Of a DNA stretch of 10,348 bases, positions 2,914 through 8,142 are shown in pieces. A program made the position numbers and the translations under genes. The stretch lies in contig JAFDJF010000028.1 in assembly GCA_019307645.1 (NCBI GenBank), positions 1 through 10,348 of the forward strand. Reading direction: 5' to 3'. The notes beneath the pieces were generated by a model. The model made no database searches. It had not been told where the DNA came from and saw nothing but the letters and a program-made list of their open reading frames with translations. Numbering within the stretch: the first letter of the stretch is position 1; every line of letters starts with the position of its first letter. This stretch comes from Deltaproteobacteria bacterium (GTDB lineage: Bacteria > Desulfobacterota > DSM-4660 > Desulfatiglandales > Desulfatiglandaceae).

Positions 2914-2928
2914 GCAAGAACTATGCCA
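2914..2928 (-). promoter_or_regulatory. Sigma-54 (-24/-12) promoter for the kinase/regulator operon
   Basis: Read on the minus strand the site is TGGCATAGTTCTTGC. It has the invariant GG and GC at exact 10-bp spacing and the TGGCA and TTGC blocks of the consensus TGGCACGNNNNTTGC. Transcription would start near 2902, giving a leader of about 197 nt before the kinase ATG at 2705 that includes the palindromic element. It is the only good match between the two regulatory genes. This fits control of the kinase/regulator operon by a sigma-54 activator, possibly the one encoded just upstream. Confidence 0.75.
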
Positions 2929-3372: not shown

Positions 3373-4431
3373 TTAAGAAGCCTGTGCCAATTGATGTCTT
3401 TTTATCTTTTCCACAAGCGTCGTTCTGTTAACCTGCAGAAGCTTTGCAGCCCTTTTCTTAACCCATTTGGTCTGTTCCAGACATTGCACGATGAGATTTT
3501 TCTCGAATTCGCTTACTGCCGTGCTGAGGCATATTCCTTCCTGTGTAATGTCCATCTGGGGTAATAACACAGATGTATTTTTCATTGTAAGCTTCTTTGG
3601 CAGATCCTTTGGCATGATCTCTCCCTTACCTTTTAAGACAACAAGCCCTTCGACCATATTTTTTAGTTCTCTTACGTTGCCTTTCCAGGAATGGTTCATG
3701 ATAATTTCCATCGACTCTTCGCCGATCCCTTCAACATCCCTGCTGTTCTTTTCGTTAAATTGTTTCAAAAAATGAGAGATAAGGAGAGGTATATCCGACT
3801 TGCGTTCTCTTAACGGAGGCAGGTTTATGGGAATCACAAAAAGTCTGTAAAACAGGTCTTCCCTGAAGTTCCCTTTTTGGACTTCTTCTTCCAGGTCTCG
3901 ATGAGTGGCTGCAATAATTCTTACATCGACTTTAATGGTCTTACAGCCGCCTACTTGTTCAAACTCCTTCTCTTCAAGTACCCTTAATATTTTTACCTGC
4001 AGATCAGGGCTCATATCGCCGATTTCATCCAGAAAAACAGTTCCCCCATCAGCCACTTCGAACTTGCCCTGTTTAGGCGAGGTTGCACCTGTAAAGGCGC
4101 CCCTGACATGTCCAAACAGTTCACTTTCAAGTAAATTTTCAGGGATAGCGCCACAATTTATCTGGACAAAGGGCTTGCTTGTTCTTTGGGAATATTTGTG
4201 GATTGCTTTGGCTATCAACCCTTTCCCGGTCCCGGTCTCTCCATTAATTATGATCGTGCTGTCACTGTCAGCCACATTTTCAACCAGGCTGAATACCTCT
4301 TCCATTTTATGACTCTGGCCAATGATGTCTTTAAACTTGTTCTGACTTTTCGACTTTGGTTCAGCTGATTTATTTACAACTGAAAGCTTCTTTTCCTTTG
4401 GCACCCTTTCATCAATAGCTAATTCCGACAA
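3373..4431 (-). CDS. Receiver-less sigma-54-dependent transcription activator (PspF/FlrA-like AAA+-HTH)
   Basis: Enhancer-binding ATPase that opens sigma-54 promoters. At 352 aa it lacks any receiver or ligand domain; only about 32 lysine-rich residues precede the AAA+ domain. Visible motifs are Walker A GETGTGKG (64-71), GAFTGA (111-116), Walker B FLDEI (D135/E136), the FREDLFYR segment (189-196), and a C-terminal Fis-type HTH (about 324-347, RAAKLLQVNRTTL). Translation starts at TTG (4431) behind a strong AAGGAGG site, and no ATG lies nearby. Without an on-board sensor, activity is probably set by expression level, by a partner protein (as PspA does for PspF or FleN for FleQ) or by a small RNA. 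It has its own sigma-54 promoter at 4500-4514. Its place just upstream of a PAS kinase and NtrC regulator matches flrABC/fleQSR order, but it lacks the N-terminal FleQ domain of the characterised FlrA/FleQ proteins. Confidence 0.9.
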   Translation of the reverse strand: MSELAIDERVPKEKKLSVVNKSAEPKSKSQNKFKDIIGQSHKMEEVFSLVENVADSDSTIIINGETGTGKGLIAKAIHKYSQRTSKPFVQINCGAIPENLLESELFGHVRGAFTGATSPKQGKFEVADGGTVFLDEIGDMSPDLQVKILRVLEEKEFEQVGGCKTIKVDVRIIAATHRDLEEEVQKGNFREDLFYRLFVIPINLPPLRERKSDIPLLISHFLKQFNEKNSRDVEGIGEESMEIIMNHSWKGNVRELKNMVEGLVVLKGKGEIMPKDLPKKLTMKNTSVLLPQMDITQEGICLSTAVSEFEKNLIVQCLEQTKWVKKRAAKLLQVNRTTLVEKIKRHQLAQAS

Positions 4432-4445: not shown

Positions 4446-4499
4446 AAGAAAAAAGATATCCCCATTATCCTTTCGAAACGCTAGACAGTAGAAAAGCTA

Positions 4500-4514
4500 G
4501 CAATTTTTGTGCCA
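4500..4514 (-). promoter_or_regulatory. Sigma-54 (-24/-12) promoter for the receiver-less activator
   Basis: The minus-strand sequence TGGCACAAAAATTGC matches the TGGCAC and TTGC consensus blocks with exact spacing. The predicted transcription start is near 4488, 57 bases before the TTG start codon. A consensus IHF site is centred about 72 bp upstream of that start. The activator is therefore itself sigma-54 dependent, by autoregulation or by another activator. Confidence 0.85.
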
Positions 4515-4990: not shown

Positions 4991-5038
4991 CTTTCCTGAA
5001 TCATGAGAAGGCAACATCACCCTCCACGAGAGGTCAAG

Positions 5039-6781
5039 ATGGACATTTGGCAATGCTTTGAAATCCTTGAACTTGACACAGACGCTTCCATAGATGATGT
5101 GAACCAGGCTTACAAGGATTTGGCAGCTGTTTGGCATCCGGACCGCTTCTCCTCTAATCCTCGCCTGAAACATAAGGCAGAGGAAAAATTAAAGACAGTC
5201 AACCAGGCATATGAGAACGTCCTGTCATTTTTGTCTGCGGAACAGGGGACCCGGAAAATCGTGCCCAGTCCTGGTGTGGCATCCCGTTCACCCGGAAGTT
5301 ACAGATCAGATGGCATCCTTAAAGGGACATCCAAAAAAGGTTCTCTGCTTCATTCAACAAGAGAACCAATCGCGGAATCTCATTTGCGGCCCTGGGTACG
5401 CTGTTTTGCAAGGATCATTGATTATCTTTTCTTTGCTTTTCTTTTGAAACTAATAGCTGCTGATAACATCTTTCCCGAAACCGAGTTTCGCGTGTTGTTT
5501 ATTCCCGCAATTCTTGCCTTTGCATGGATTATTCCAGAGGCAGGCCTTTTGAGTATGTTCGGGACAACACCCGGAAAATGGATATTAGGAACGGCTGTAG
5601 TAGATATCTTCCAGCTGAAGCCAAAGTTTTTGAGTACTCTGAGACGAAGCCTTTCGGTCTGGTGCAATGGCGTGGGTATGGGTGTTTTTTTTATCGCCCC
5701 GATTACAGCGCTTGTTGCCTGCTTTAGAATAAAAACAAGGGGATCCACGGTATGGGACAGTGACGGCAGCTTCACAGTTAAACATTGTAAGATTGGCACA
5801 CCAAGAGCTGTGATCGCCTTTTTGTCTTCCGCCGTTATAATCCTTTTTTTATTTTCTGGCCCTGACATTATGATAAAAGCGTACAGGCAGGCCGTGCGAC
5901 TAAAACCTGATGACCCCGGAACACACCTTAAGCTGGGGGACTCATATGCCAAAGCCGGCCGTTATCGTGAAGCAATGGAGGCCTACAAAAATGTCATAAA
6001 AATCGAACCTGATTATGCTCAGGCCCATTATAATCTGGGGCGCTGCTCTGTTGAGCTTGAATGTTATAATGAGGCGCTGGCGCCCTTCAAAAAGTCCATC
6101 GCCCTCAATCCCAAGTGTGCAGAAGCCTATTATGATTTAGGTGTTTGTTATGCCAAACTTCAACACACTGGAAAGGCCGTTGAGGCCCTCAAACAGGCCA
6201 TCACATTAAAACCCGATTATTTTCGAGCCTACCATGAGCTGGGGGTTTGTTATGTTGAACTTGAACGTTATGATGAGGCAATAGAGACAAGCAAAAAGGC
6301 CATAGAAATCACGGAGTACGCCCCGGCGCACTATAACCTGGGAATCTGCTATTTCAGACTTCGCCGTACGGAAGAAGCTATTAGAAGTTTCGAAGCGGCC
6401 CTGCGAATTAAAACCAATTTTACAGAGGCCTATTACAACCTGGGACTCTGTTATGTTGAACTCGGCCGTTATAACGATGCAGTGGGGCCGTTTAAAAGGG
6501 CACTGGAATTCGAACCTGAGTATGCACAAGCCTTTTATGGTCTAGGTGTTTGTTATGCCAAACTTCAACACACTGGAAAGGCCGTTGAGGCCCTCAAACA
6601 GGCCATCACATTAAAACCCGATTTTGCTGAGGCCTATCACATTCTGGGCCTTTCGTATCTGACTCTTGGCAAAAACAGCGCCGCACGTGAACAATACGAA
6701 AGTCTTAAAAATCTTGACAAGGGCCTTGCAGAAGAGTTGCTTGATTACATAGAAAACATGCCGACTTCAAATGGAACCTGA
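5039..6781 (+). CDS. J-domain / RDD membrane domain / TPR fusion protein
   Basis: Predicted inner-membrane co-chaperone or scaffold, 580 aa. Residues 1-65 are a J domain with the HPD motif (33-35), which stimulates DnaK-type Hsp70 ATPase. Residues about 116-250 are an RDD domain: R/D pattern in ARIID (124-128), GTTPGKWILG (175-184) and hydrophobic segments near 122-141, 153-171 and 211-229. A fourth helix is at 255-273. Eight TPRs (292-561) follow. An even helix number puts the J domain and the TPRs on the same, presumably cytoplasmic, face. An ATG 36 bases upstream lacks a ribosome site; the chosen ATG has GAGAGG (5028-5033) five bases away and starts exactly at the J domain. TPRs 3 and 7 share an identical 81-bp stretch and TPR 4 is one residue short. 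It stands alone, between minus-strand operons. The client is unknown. Confidence 0.88.
   Translation: MDIWQCFEILELDTDASIDDVNQAYKDLAAVWHPDRFSSNPRLKHKAEEKLKTVNQAYENVLSFLSAEQGTRKIVPSPGVASRSPGSYRSDGILKGTSKKGSLLHSTREPIAESHLRPWVRCFARIIDYLFFAFLLKLIAADNIFPETEFRVLFIPAILAFAWIIPEAGLLSMFGTTPGKWILGTAVVDIFQLKPKFLSTLRRSLSVWCNGVGMGVFFIAPITALVACFRIKTRGSTVWDSDGSFTVKHCKIGTPRAVIAFLSSAVIILFLFSGPDIMIKAYRQAVRLKPDDPGTHLKLGDSYAKAGRYREAMEAYKNVIKIEPDYAQAHYNLGRCSVELECYNEALAPFKKSIALNPKCAEAYYDLGVCYAKLQHTGKAVEALKQAITLKPDYFRAYHELGVCYVELERYDEAIETSKKAIEITEYAPAHYNLGICYFRLRRTEEAIRSFEAALRIKTNFTEAYYNLGLCYVELGRYNDAVGPFKRALEFEPEYAQAFYGLGVCYAKLQHTGKAVEALKQAITLKPDFAEAYHILGLSYLTLGKNSAAREQYESLKNLDKGLAEELLDYIENMPTSNGT
6138..6218 (+). 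repeat. 81-bp exact internal repeat, copy 1 (TPR 3)
   Basis: Identical base for base to 6543-6623, 405 bp downstream (135 codons, four TPRs less one codon). It encodes residues 367-393 of the J/RDD/TPR protein. Confidence 0.95.
6543..6623 (+). repeat. 81-bp exact internal repeat, copy 2 (TPR 7)
   Basis: Second copy of the 6138-6218 sequence, encoding residues 502-528. The other TPRs of the gene differ at many bases, so this pair points to a recent duplication or gene conversion rather than ordinary TPR similarity. Confidence 0.95.
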
Positions 6782-6817
6782 TCCGGTTTTTTTACCAAAA
6801 AAAACCCTGCCGGATCA
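6779..6817. other. Alternative hairpin starting at the stop codon of the J-domain gene
   Basis: TGATCCGG (6779-6786) pairs with CCGGATCA (6810-6817); between them T7 (6787-6793) can pair with the A8 run (6797-6804) around ACC. The TGA stop codon itself is part of the stem. This fold shares bases with the terminator stem at 6802-6833, so the two exclude each other. It may end or stabilise the plus-strand transcript, although no T-run follows it. Confidence 0.5.
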
Positions 6818-6833
6818 ATTTCCTGCAGGGTTT
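6797..6833 (-). terminator. Intrinsic terminator, minus strand
   Basis: On the minus strand the 9-bp stem AAACCCTGC / GCAGGGTTT (6825-6833 with 6802-6810) has a 14-nt loop and is followed directly by a T-run (8 T counting the last stem bases, 6797-6804). It would end transcripts of the ATPase operon and of the candidate small RNA starting near 6878. No T-run follows on the plus strand. Confidence 0.8.
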
Positions 6834-6878
6834 AAAAGGTAAGAATGAAAGAAAGGGGGTTTTTTCTCTTACACTTGC
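6797..6878 (-). ncRNA. Predicted sigma-54-dependent small RNA, about 82 nt
   Basis: A near-consensus sigma-54 promoter (6890-6904) predicts a start at 6878, and an intrinsic terminator ends at about 6797, with no ORF between. The RNA would fold into two hairpins. The first pairs GUAAGA (6867-6872) with UCUUAC (6839-6844), continues with GAAA/UUUC across a 2-nt bulge, and presents the 12-nt loop AAACCCCCUUUC. The second is the terminator. A C-rich apical loop is typical of small RNAs that pair with Shine-Dalgarno sequences. Possible targets in the window are the G-runs before the activator (4436-4445) and the response regulator (AAGGGG, 1442-1447), each giving only about six Watson-Crick pairs. 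No known RNA family is recognised. The alternative is that the promoter match is accidental and the segment is merely the operon's 3' trailer. Confidence 0.55.
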
Positions 6879-6889
6879 ATGATTTTATT

Positions 6890-6904
6890 GCAACTATCAT
6901 GCCA
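6890..6904 (-). promoter_or_regulatory. Sigma-54 (-24/-12) promoter facing the convergent terminator
   Basis: On the minus strand TGGCATGATAGTTGC matches the consensus TGGCACGNNNNTTGC at all but one specified base, with correct GG-N10-GC spacing. It lies 42 bp past the stop of the ATPase gene and points to a terminator 60-90 bp on, with no gene between. It overlaps an inverted repeat GCATGAT/ATCATGC (6877-6883 and 6896-6902) that includes the predicted start, a possible operator. Confidence 0.7.
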
Positions 6905-6945: not shown

Positions 6946-8142
6946 CTAACGATGCTCACAGCGTTTGAGAAACGCTTCAAAATCAAGCGGAATGATTGTT
7001 GCCTCACTATTAACTGTGTCTTCAGGAGGCAGCTTTGTTTCGGGGTGTTCCCCCCGCCCATTTCCTAAAGCTTTTCTGATTACACCAATATCCTGCGACA
7101 TTGATGAAACGTTTTTTACAAGGTCTTCCAATAGCAGACGGATTTCCTGTGCCATATGTCCGCCTTCAATAATCTGGGGATGAGAACTCGGGTCAGAAGA
7201 CGATGATATCTCAACCGCCCCGGATAACGAAGCCTTTTTCTCAGCGGAATGTTGATCAATGGTTGCCTTTTCATCCGGTACATCATGTTTGGATTCTTCA
7301 GGTTTCTTAACAGCCTTGGTACCCGTAAGCTGTACAGGTTCTTTGAAAACTCTCAAACATCTTGTCCAGAAAGTTTCAAGGCCGTAAATCTCAGTATCTG
7401 CGGCCTTTTCCTCGCCCAGATGCTTTGCCATCTTTTTTATGCAAATCGAGGCGGTCGAATTCGGGTAACGAGAAACAAATGGTTTCTGTTCTTTCACGGC
7501 CTTGACGACATTTGAATCCTGCATAACTGCGCCGAGAGGCAACACCTTGACGGGAAGAAATTTTTCCACTGTTTCTCTGAACTTTGTATATACAATTCTT
7601 GCACTCTGTATATTCTTACACTGGTTCACTGCGACCATGACGGAGTTGTTGAATCCGTTTAATGATAGAATTTTCAGCAGCGCATAACCGTCGGTCAATG
7701 AAGTGGGTTCGGGTGTTACAATCAAAATGACTTCCGAGGAAGCCATACAGAAAGAAATAACATTTTTTGAGACTCCGGCAGAAGTGTCAAAAATGAAAAA
7801 GTCGTATTCACCATCAAGTTCGGAAAATGACCTGATCATGTACTCAAGCTTCTCCGGATCAAGATCCGCCATTTTTTCGACACCCGAACTCCCTGGGATT
7901 ATGTCAATTCCTTTGTAGTCTTTAATTATGATATCGTCGATAGTCTTCTCGTTTAGGATTACATCACCCAAATCATGTTCCGGATAAAGTCCCAGAAGAA
8001 TATTGATATTGGCAAGGCCCAAATCTGCATCAAAAAGGCACGTCCGGTAACCCTGGCGGGCCAGACAAAGGGCGAGATTGGCACTGATATTTGTTTTTCC
8101 AACTCCGCCTTTTCCGCTTGTGACTGTAATTACCCTGGCCAC
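6946..8142 (-). CDS. FlhG/FleN/MinD-like P-loop ATPase with C-terminal extension
   Basis: Deviant Walker-A ATPase of the MinD/ParA (SIMIBI) group, 398 aa. Residues 1-245 form the ATPase: SGKGGVGKTN (9-18, signature lysine K11, P-loop K16), switch I FDADLGLANINILLG (D38/D40) and Walker B FFIFDTSAG (D119). The LGLANINILLG and DLGDV segments resemble the YlxH/FlhG branch more than ParA. It lacks the N-terminal DQA motif by which FlhG stimulates FlhF. The last ~150 residues are a Lys/Glu/Ser-rich linker and a helical segment (EIRLLLEDLVKNV...); no clear MinD membrane-targeting helix ends the protein. The start is GTG at 8142 behind GAGGAGG (8147-8153), overlapping the previous gene by 13 bp, so translation is coupled to the MshEN-repeat protein. 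Likely roles are polar placement or antagonism of a FleQ-like activator; a ParA-like cargo ATPase is the alternative. Confidence 0.85.
   Translation of the reverse strand: MARVITVTSGKGGVGKTNISANLALCLARQGYRTCLFDADLGLANINILLGLYPEHDLGDVILNEKTIDDIIIKDYKGIDIIPGSSGVEKMADLDPEKLEYMIRSFSELDGEYDFFIFDTSAGVSKNVISFCMASSEVILIVTPEPTSLTDGYALLKILSLNGFNNSVMVAVNQCKNIQSARIVYTKFRETVEKFLPVKVLPLGAVMQDSNVVKAVKEQKPFVSRYPNSTASICIKKMAKHLGEEKAADTEIYGLETFWTRCLRVFKEPVQLTGTKAVKKPEESKHDVPDEKATIDQHSAEKKASLSGAVEISSSSDPSSHPQIIEGGHMAQEIRLLLEDLVKNVSSMSQDIGVIRKALGNGRGEHPETKLPPEDTVNSEATIIPLDFEAFLKRCEHR

Follow-up and report, generated by a model that had tools for sequence, protein, structure and literature searches.

The window, that is, the whole stretch of 10,348 nt that was analyzed, carries on its minus strand the genes for a response regulator, an MshEN-domain protein, a MinD/ParA (FlhG-like) ATPase, a receiver-less sigma-54 activator, a PAS kinase, and an NtrC-type activator. 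The single gene on the plus strand encodes a DnaJ-RDD-TPR protein. This TPR gene (end at 6781) and the ParA gene (end at 6946) converge on a gap of 164 nt, which is the site of the RNA gene described here. The closest matches of the ParA protein are proteins from metagenomes (P0002-P0006 with 71 to 89% identity) and from Desulfobacterota, such as an uncultured Desulfobacterium, and the window itself probably comes from a metagenome. A single-protein scan with ParA as the search anchor gave no match; a ParA profile scan gave at least 80 loci, and among the matches listed only L001 was close, with an HDOD-like continuation behind its ParA. Viral contigs, searched by protein and by promoter pattern, gave no match either. 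The features of the window are the following.

6797..6878, minus strand: small RNA of about 82 nt, predicted start near 6878-6879 (promoter spacing, fold, leave-one-out profile)
6890..6904, minus strand: -24/-12 (sigma-54) promoter TGGCATGATAGTTGC (exact match, top matrix score of the window, like element in 13 of 15 relatives)
6836..6876, minus strand: first hairpin, AU-rich stem, pairing shifted relative to the family (fold; aligns with the 9-bp stem of the relatives)
6851..6862, minus strand: loop AAACCCCCUUUC with the C5 run (6859-6855), a variant form of the UUUCCCUCCUUUC loop typical of the family
6797..6833, minus strand: intrinsic terminator, stem 6833-6802 plus U-run (fold; 9 of 12 stem pairs with both partners changed among the 16 copies)
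6946..8142, minus strand: MinD/ParA (FlhG-like) ATPase gene, upstream of the RNA gene (Pfam, homologues)
5003..6781, plus strand: DnaJ-RDD-TPR protein gene, convergent to the RNA gene (Pfam)
4500..4514, minus strand: second -24/-12 element, upstream of the receiver-less sigma-54 activator gene at 3373-4431 (matrix scan; like element before the orthologue in genome G152)
2914..2928, minus strand: third -24/-12 element, upstream of the kinase and NtrC-type activator genes (exact match and matrix scan; near-identical element in L144)
6960..6976, no strand assigned: AGCGTTT-N3-AAACGCT, an inverted repeat with perfect 7-bp arms within the final codons of the ParA gene, about 56 nt upstream of the RNA promoter

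Promoter, fold, and terminator in the window

There are four exact matches to TGGC-N7-TTGC in the window, at 6904, 2928, 4514, and 8587, the last of which is intragenic. The promoter at 6904-6890 has the top weight-matrix score of the window (18.1, with the runner-up at 4514 scoring 15.3). When the window was randomized 200 times with a first-order Markov model, two equally good sites appeared, which corresponds to 1.6e-4 per 164-nt gap with both strands counted. The first-pass annotation of this DNA had described a well-spaced -24/-12 promoter pointing at a terminator, and this arrangement is present. It had also described a transcript of about 82 nt that has no open reading frame (ORF) and ends at an intrinsic terminator. 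Even with 30 nt added to the RNA, its longest ORF has 8 codons, compared to up to 31 in the relatives, and the terminator stem 6833-6802 with its U-run folds at -18.3 kcal/mol, with none of 200 shuffles as stable. An automated terminator scan of the window did not report this terminator. The C5 run that had been placed in the first loop was found at 6859-6855. We conclude that the promoter, the length, the terminator, and the C-run of the RNA gene are confirmed.

The proposed two-hairpin fold held up in part. The 82-nt RNA (6878-6797) folds at -24.5 (z of -3.9), and it is the terminator hairpin that contributes most. When the first hairpin (6878-6838) was folded alone, its energy was -5.3 (z of -1.5) and 20 of 200 shuffles were equally stable, so the idea that this hairpin is significant by itself was dropped and the case for it rests on the family described below.

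The inverted repeat at 6960-6976 is a possible activator site of the RNA promoter. The half-site AAACGCT has one further occurrence in the window, at 4476-4482, near the activator promoter. Upstream of the relatives' copies no equivalent of the repeat was found, and a search of these upstream regions for a common activator site found none. Four copies (G405, G413, and the first and second copies of G412) have ACAAAATC just upstream of the -24 element.

Concerning the other -24/-12 elements, near-identical ones (TGGCATARTTCTTGCC) precede the kinase/NtrC-type unit of the window (2928-2914) and the NtrC-type gene of G152 (L144, position 6756). A tblastn search with the window kinase against L144 gave no counterpart at an E value of 1e-10. 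A palindromic GTCATGCCGGACTTGATCCGGCATCC...GGATTCCGGCCTTCGCCGGAATGAC stretch lies at 2780-2880, between the kinase gene and the kinase promoter, and as the kinase ORF (from 2816) starts inside it, translation of the kinase probably begins further in. Conservation of the receiver-less activator is 64 to 83% in G152, G092, and G429 (L249, L250, and L251). Its gene is preceded by a -24/-12-like element in G152 and, with less clarity, in G092, and based on these elements it is perhaps autoregulated.

Relatives of the RNA in one order of Desulfobacterota

A covariance model made from the window sequence alone (R1) was run on 395 genomes drawn evenly across the phylum and gave matches at E values of at most 0.05 in nine of them. 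Eight of these lacked TGGC-N7-TTGC in the first 40 nt and were rejected; the sole member was the match in G225 (L149), which has the same layout as the window and lies among unrelated genes. The G225 copy and the window have in common the stretch TTT-NN-TTCATTC-N-TA, which R1 had left unaligned. A BLASTN search with 114 nt on 85 genomes returned chance-like matches and did not list the true G225 copy.

A second model (R2), consisting of the promoter and hairpin of the window and G225 without the terminator, was run on 85 genomes of the order to which G152 belongs. At E values of at most 1 there were 20 matches, and directly behind 11 of them, including G225, itself a sequence of the model, there was a terminator-like hairpin with a U-run. 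Ten matches became members (L155-L162, L171, and L167). The matches L163, L165, L166, L168, L169, L170, L172, L173, and L174 had no terminator directly behind them, several also had no -24/-12 element, and all nine were rejected. L164 (minus strand of G440 contig 73, 221-120) is a divergent candidate: its -24/-12 element scores 17.9, its UUUCCUCCU is unpaired, it has a terminator, and it immediately follows a gene for an NtrC-type sigma-54 activator on the same strand (1719-415, minus; domain recognized by eye). It is not counted as a member because it is matched by R2 only and is missed by the third model. This third model (R3) was made from the hairpin and terminator of 10 copies with the promoter left out.

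In the same 85 genomes, R3 found 15 copies in 12 genomes at E values of at most 1e-7: three in G407, two in G412, and one each in G405, G406, G413, G225, G268, G429, G462, G461, G092, and G459. Over the 395 phylum genomes, the same threshold gave only G225, G268, and G092, which belong to the same order as G152, and the next match had an E value of 2.4e-6. Within the stricter filters used in these searches, the family looks confined to one order of Desulfobacterota. Weaker R3 matches were excluded from membership. We fetched 42 such loci, and among the 41 with enough upstream sequence none had a -24/-12 score of 12 or more and seven had CCUCC, indicating that CCUCC near a terminator is not rare. 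By eye, two loci (L214 1501-1580 in G438 and L213 1501-1572 in G408) look like decayed copies that kept the 3' half and the terminator and lost the 5' arm and the promoter. A locus from another class (L192 1501-1574 in G016) shows CCCUCC, a AAAUGGAGUUCCCUCCAUUUU hairpin, CUUCCUCC, and a terminator, with a weak TGGT-N7-TTGC ahead (score of 10).

The nearest genomes by ParA identity are G454 (63%) and G152 (62%). G152 has the gene order of the window (NtrC-type activator, receiver-less activator, DnaJ and RDD parts, ParA, MshEN protein, and regulator), and at the place of the RNA gene, between ParA and the RDD gene, it has a gene for a PilZ-domain protein (L144, which is contig 3, 11227-11964). 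This gene overlaps the end of the RDD gene, so there is no space for the RNA. In G454, judged by eye, a similar gene seems to start behind ParA at the contig end. A PilZ remnant was looked for in the 164-nt gap of the window, and none was found. R1 found no copy in the locus regions of G152 and G454 (best matches with E values of about 1), R2 and R3 gave no match over the whole G152 genome under the stricter filters of these searches, and R3 gave one match in G454 with an E value of 0.4. The RNA is not conserved at the locus at this distance. The first-pass annotation had named loss of the promoter and the C-loop in close relatives that keep the flanking genes as an observation that would refute it; this is what is seen at the G152 locus, yet the RNA is present elsewhere in the order.

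Promoters, leave-one-out profiles, and covariation

A -24/-12 element is in place in 13 of the 15 relatives, starting 23 to 34 nt upstream of the model start, with matrix scores of 12.5 to 18.3; a score of 12.5 is reached by 0.7% of random 60-nt stretches. The R2 model contained the promoter, so that this element had helped to find the R2 copies. Six copies were used in no model (G406, the third of G407, the second of G412, G429, G092, and G459), and four of these have the element, although G429 was also a weak R2 match (E value of 0.41). The two copies without it are G406 and the third of G407. In the latter (L230 4013-4187) there is a 12/12 match to a sigma-70-type promoter, TTGACA-16-TATAAT, further upstream and a 9/12 match nearer, and G407 thus has two sigma-54-type copies and one sigma-70-type copy in one genome. 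A promoter scan of G406 found no alternative site. The exceptions to the -24/-12 rule may use other promoters.

A profile hidden Markov model of the other 15 copies finds the window with an E value of 6.9e-10 in 814 kb (3.1e-6 with the RNA only), a result that is only partly independent, as the searches that yielded these copies had started from the window sequence. The runner-up, with an E value of 3.2, is the activator promoter at 4521-4498. When G225 and G268 were also left out, the values were 8.3e-10 and 5.4e-6 (RNA only). When the profile of all 15 copies was restricted to their initial 46 nt, it did not find the window. In a MAFFT alignment of the 16 copies, 92.8% of the cells are paired. 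Changes on both sides were seen in 11 of 21 pairs, compared to 5.3 in shuffles, with 0 of 500 shuffles as high, and there are 25 pair types compared to 21.9 (11 of 500 shuffles reach this). Slid pairings had 40 to 60% of their cells paired, and the slide by -3 still gave 10 both-side pairs, with 47% of cells paired. Nine of the 11 pairs are located in the terminator and two in the first stem, which has nine pairs in all.

The promoter, the terminator, and a related RNA between them are conserved together across unlinked loci. With 15 relatives, 13 of them with a -24/-12 element, and the window recovered by the leave-one-out profile, there is strong support for the proposed small RNA with sigma-54 control and a C-rich loop.

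Anatomy of the family and neighboring genes

The consensus consists of a 9-bp stem, GGAAUGAAG/CUUCAUUCC, with the loop UUUCCCUCCUUUC, followed by a linker that is often near YACCUCCU and the terminator CCCUGUUAGG...CCUAACAGGG. Identity of the relatives' RNAs to that of the window ranges from 0.63 to 0.74, and the pyrimidine loop and the 3' arm are the best-conserved stretch. CCUCC is present in the loop region of 11 of the 16 copies (in G413 and the first copy of G412 the fold prediction pairs part of it), which makes it plausible that the C-run meets G-rich ribosome sites, as had been claimed. It is also present in the linker of seven copies (the first and third of G407, G405, G413, both of G412, and G092). 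Within the first 50 nt, 13 of 16 copies have CCUCC versus 12% of mononucleotide shuffles. This motif coincides with the 16S rRNA tail, CACCUCCUUU, and is the anti-Shine-Dalgarno core. The window copy has CCCCCUUUC instead, a variant of the anti-Shine-Dalgarno loop of the family; other variants are CCCCCC in G459, CCCUUGUUU in the second copy of G407, and UUCCUUU in G092. The second copy of G412 has neither a C-run nor a C-rich loop, and four others, including the window, have no CCUCC in the loop.

Pfam analysis of 40 proteins encoded next to the copies showed CheW and a CheA-type kinase in G429, a chemoreceptor and an Hpt protein in G092, HDOD-kinase genes in G461 and G462, GAF kinases in G225, G268, and G461, a GNAT acetyltransferase and a hydrolase next to the copy in G405 and the first copy in G407, ribosomal protein S7 next to the second copy in G407, and other genes elsewhere. 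The neighbors are alike in some pairs of genomes and signaling genes are recurrent, but there is no constant partner. As the neighbors vary between lineages, the RNA is probably trans-acting.

Discussion

We infer that the RNA is transcribed in dependence on sigma-54 and that it represses targets by pairing, with pairing of the loop to ribosome sites as the likeliest mechanism. Upon triggering of an enhancer-binding activator, sigma-54 RNA polymerase would start the RNA, and the transcript would stop at its own terminator after about 80 nt, giving an RNA with two hairpins, first one that presents the loop and then that of the terminator. This loop (UUUCCCUCCUUUC in the consensus, AAACCCCCUUUC in the window), together with the linker CCUCC in those copies that have one, would be complementary to Shine-Dalgarno sequences. 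In this way the RNA would pair with the ribosome-binding sites of a set of mRNAs and lower their translation under the condition sensed by the activator. Our preferred reading, to which we assign a probability of roughly 70%, is that of a free-standing, sigma-54-activated regulatory RNA whose loop most likely pairs with the ribosome-binding sites of several mRNAs and lowers their translation. A more far-reaching version, which we find rather doubtful, is that the RNA would be a sigma-54-switched mimic of the 16S tail, presenting one or two copies of CCUCC(U) in the loop and linker and, in response to the signal, broadly restraining mRNAs that have strong Shine-Dalgarno sequences. If true, this would tie the state of sigma-54 signaling to global translation, and variant loops such as the CCCCC of the window would be retuned to sites with G-runs.

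A role closer to the locus had been suggested in the first-pass annotation, by which the RNA would pair with the ribosome sites of both sigma-54 activators of the window and so close a negative feedback loop. Pairing energies were computed solely for the gene starts of the window, where an entry 'RR' (10306) was disregarded because there is no start codon there, and the best-pairing start is that of the receiver-less activator, activator 2, with the site TTAAGGAGGGGGAAAATTG and -15.8 kcal/mol. Each activator unit has its own -24/-12 element, and in G440 the divergent candidate immediately follows a gene for an NtrC-type activator. There is also a documented precedent in NfeR1, which silences ntrBC (PMC10746234) and shows that such a loop can exist. 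However, 5% of shuffled loops pair equally well with activator 2, and for the NtrC-type activator 1 (-11.7 kcal/mol with the loop) this is 25%. Moreover, the activator 2 site is nearly unchanged in G152 (AAGGAGGGGAAAATTG, one G fewer than in the window), a genome with no RNA match, and the orthologue sites in G429 (AAGGGGGAAAAATTG) and G092 (CCGGAGGTAACACATTG) do not follow the loops there. Because the sites do not track the loops, the feedback proposal receives no special support; these two activator genes are also absent among the scanned neighbors of the 15 relatives, and we consider feedback on the two activators unlikely.

Binding of a protein, CsrA or another, instead of pairing would make the C-rich loop incidental, and GGA triplets do occur in 15 of the 16 copies, with at least two in 10. 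Yet the number per RNA is 0 to 3, many are at stem-paired positions, G461 has none, and the one in the window is in the terminator; titration of CsrA was rated low since the triplets are few and often at stem-paired positions. As the best conservation lies in the pyrimidine loop and the 3' arm, a protein-binding role seems to us quite improbable. The terminator could also serve the ParA operon, as the RNA is downstream of ParA on the same strand and the first hairpin is weak alone, with the -24/-12 match being due to chance and no separate RNA made. That the promoter, hairpin, and terminator stay together next to other genes in 11 genomes (the RNA in 12, with G406 lacking the promoter) and that a promoter match this good is rare by chance make such a plain operon terminator very hard to accept. 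The convergent geometry of the window would allow antisense pairing in cis with the 3' end of the DnaJ-RDD-TPR mRNA, but the relatives have no constant converging neighbor, and we give this explanation almost no credence.

Comparison with known systems

At the curated threshold, Rfam 15 gave no match in the window and in the 15 member loci (103 kb). A relaxed Rfam search of 12 loci gave four sub-threshold matches; two, to SurC, lie on the other strand from the RNA, and two lie elsewhere. In the literature on small RNAs of Desulfobacterota, within a search that mostly did not reach subscription papers, we found no RNA of this form. Qrr and CrcZ are short intergenic RNAs that depend on sigma-54 and are under the control of enhancer-binding activators. 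GlmY sequesters RapZ, which differs from the pairing with ribosome sites proposed here. We know of no anti-Shine-Dalgarno loop of the form of the window family in GlmY, Qrr, or CrcZ. GlmY is another short intergenic RNA, and its -24/-12 promoter is likewise controlled by an enhancer-binding activator (PMC7073468).

Two other RNAs share some traits with the family. S17 of Bordetella pertussis likewise has a C/U-rich single-stranded region that is complementary to ribosome-site regions, and it represses a gene for a sigma-54 activator; it differs in being processed from a longer transcript and in belonging to the Betaproteobacteria (PMC11722255). CJnc230/FlmE of Campylobacter jejuni is also RpoN dependent and is linked to motility, but it is mainly cotranscribed with flgE and then processed, whereas the RNA of the window is a promoter-RNA-terminator unit of its own (PMC11187230).

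The closest likeness is to alphar14/NfeR1 (SmelA075) and the CcsR-like "cuckoo" RNAs of Alphaproteobacteria, which also have anti-Shine-Dalgarno hairpin loops and act in trans on ribosome-binding sites (PMC10746234, PMC3927594, PMC10253847). In the alphar14/CcsR RNAs, the loop motif CCUCCUCCC is carried by two to four hairpins whose stems vary. The cuckoo family is recognized by CCUCCUCCC in several hairpins; in the window family we found a single presenting hairpin with CCCUCCUUU, and its stem sequence is largely kept. In those same sources, the NfeR1 promoter is of the sigma-70 type under LsrB/NtrC and that of CcsR is of the RpoH type, whereas the promoters of the window family are mostly sigma-54 and the phylum is another one. 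Anti-Shine-Dalgarno small RNAs are known in Alphaproteobacteria and sigma-54-controlled small RNAs are known elsewhere (PMC10746234, PMC3927594, PMC10253847, PMC7073468). As far as Rfam goes, the RNA of the window belongs to a new family, which joins these two known traits. It is a case of an anti-Shine-Dalgarno RNA that is apparently under activator control, and as a compact and testable family in which most copies have a sigma-54 promoter, it offers a handle on riboregulation in these anaerobes.
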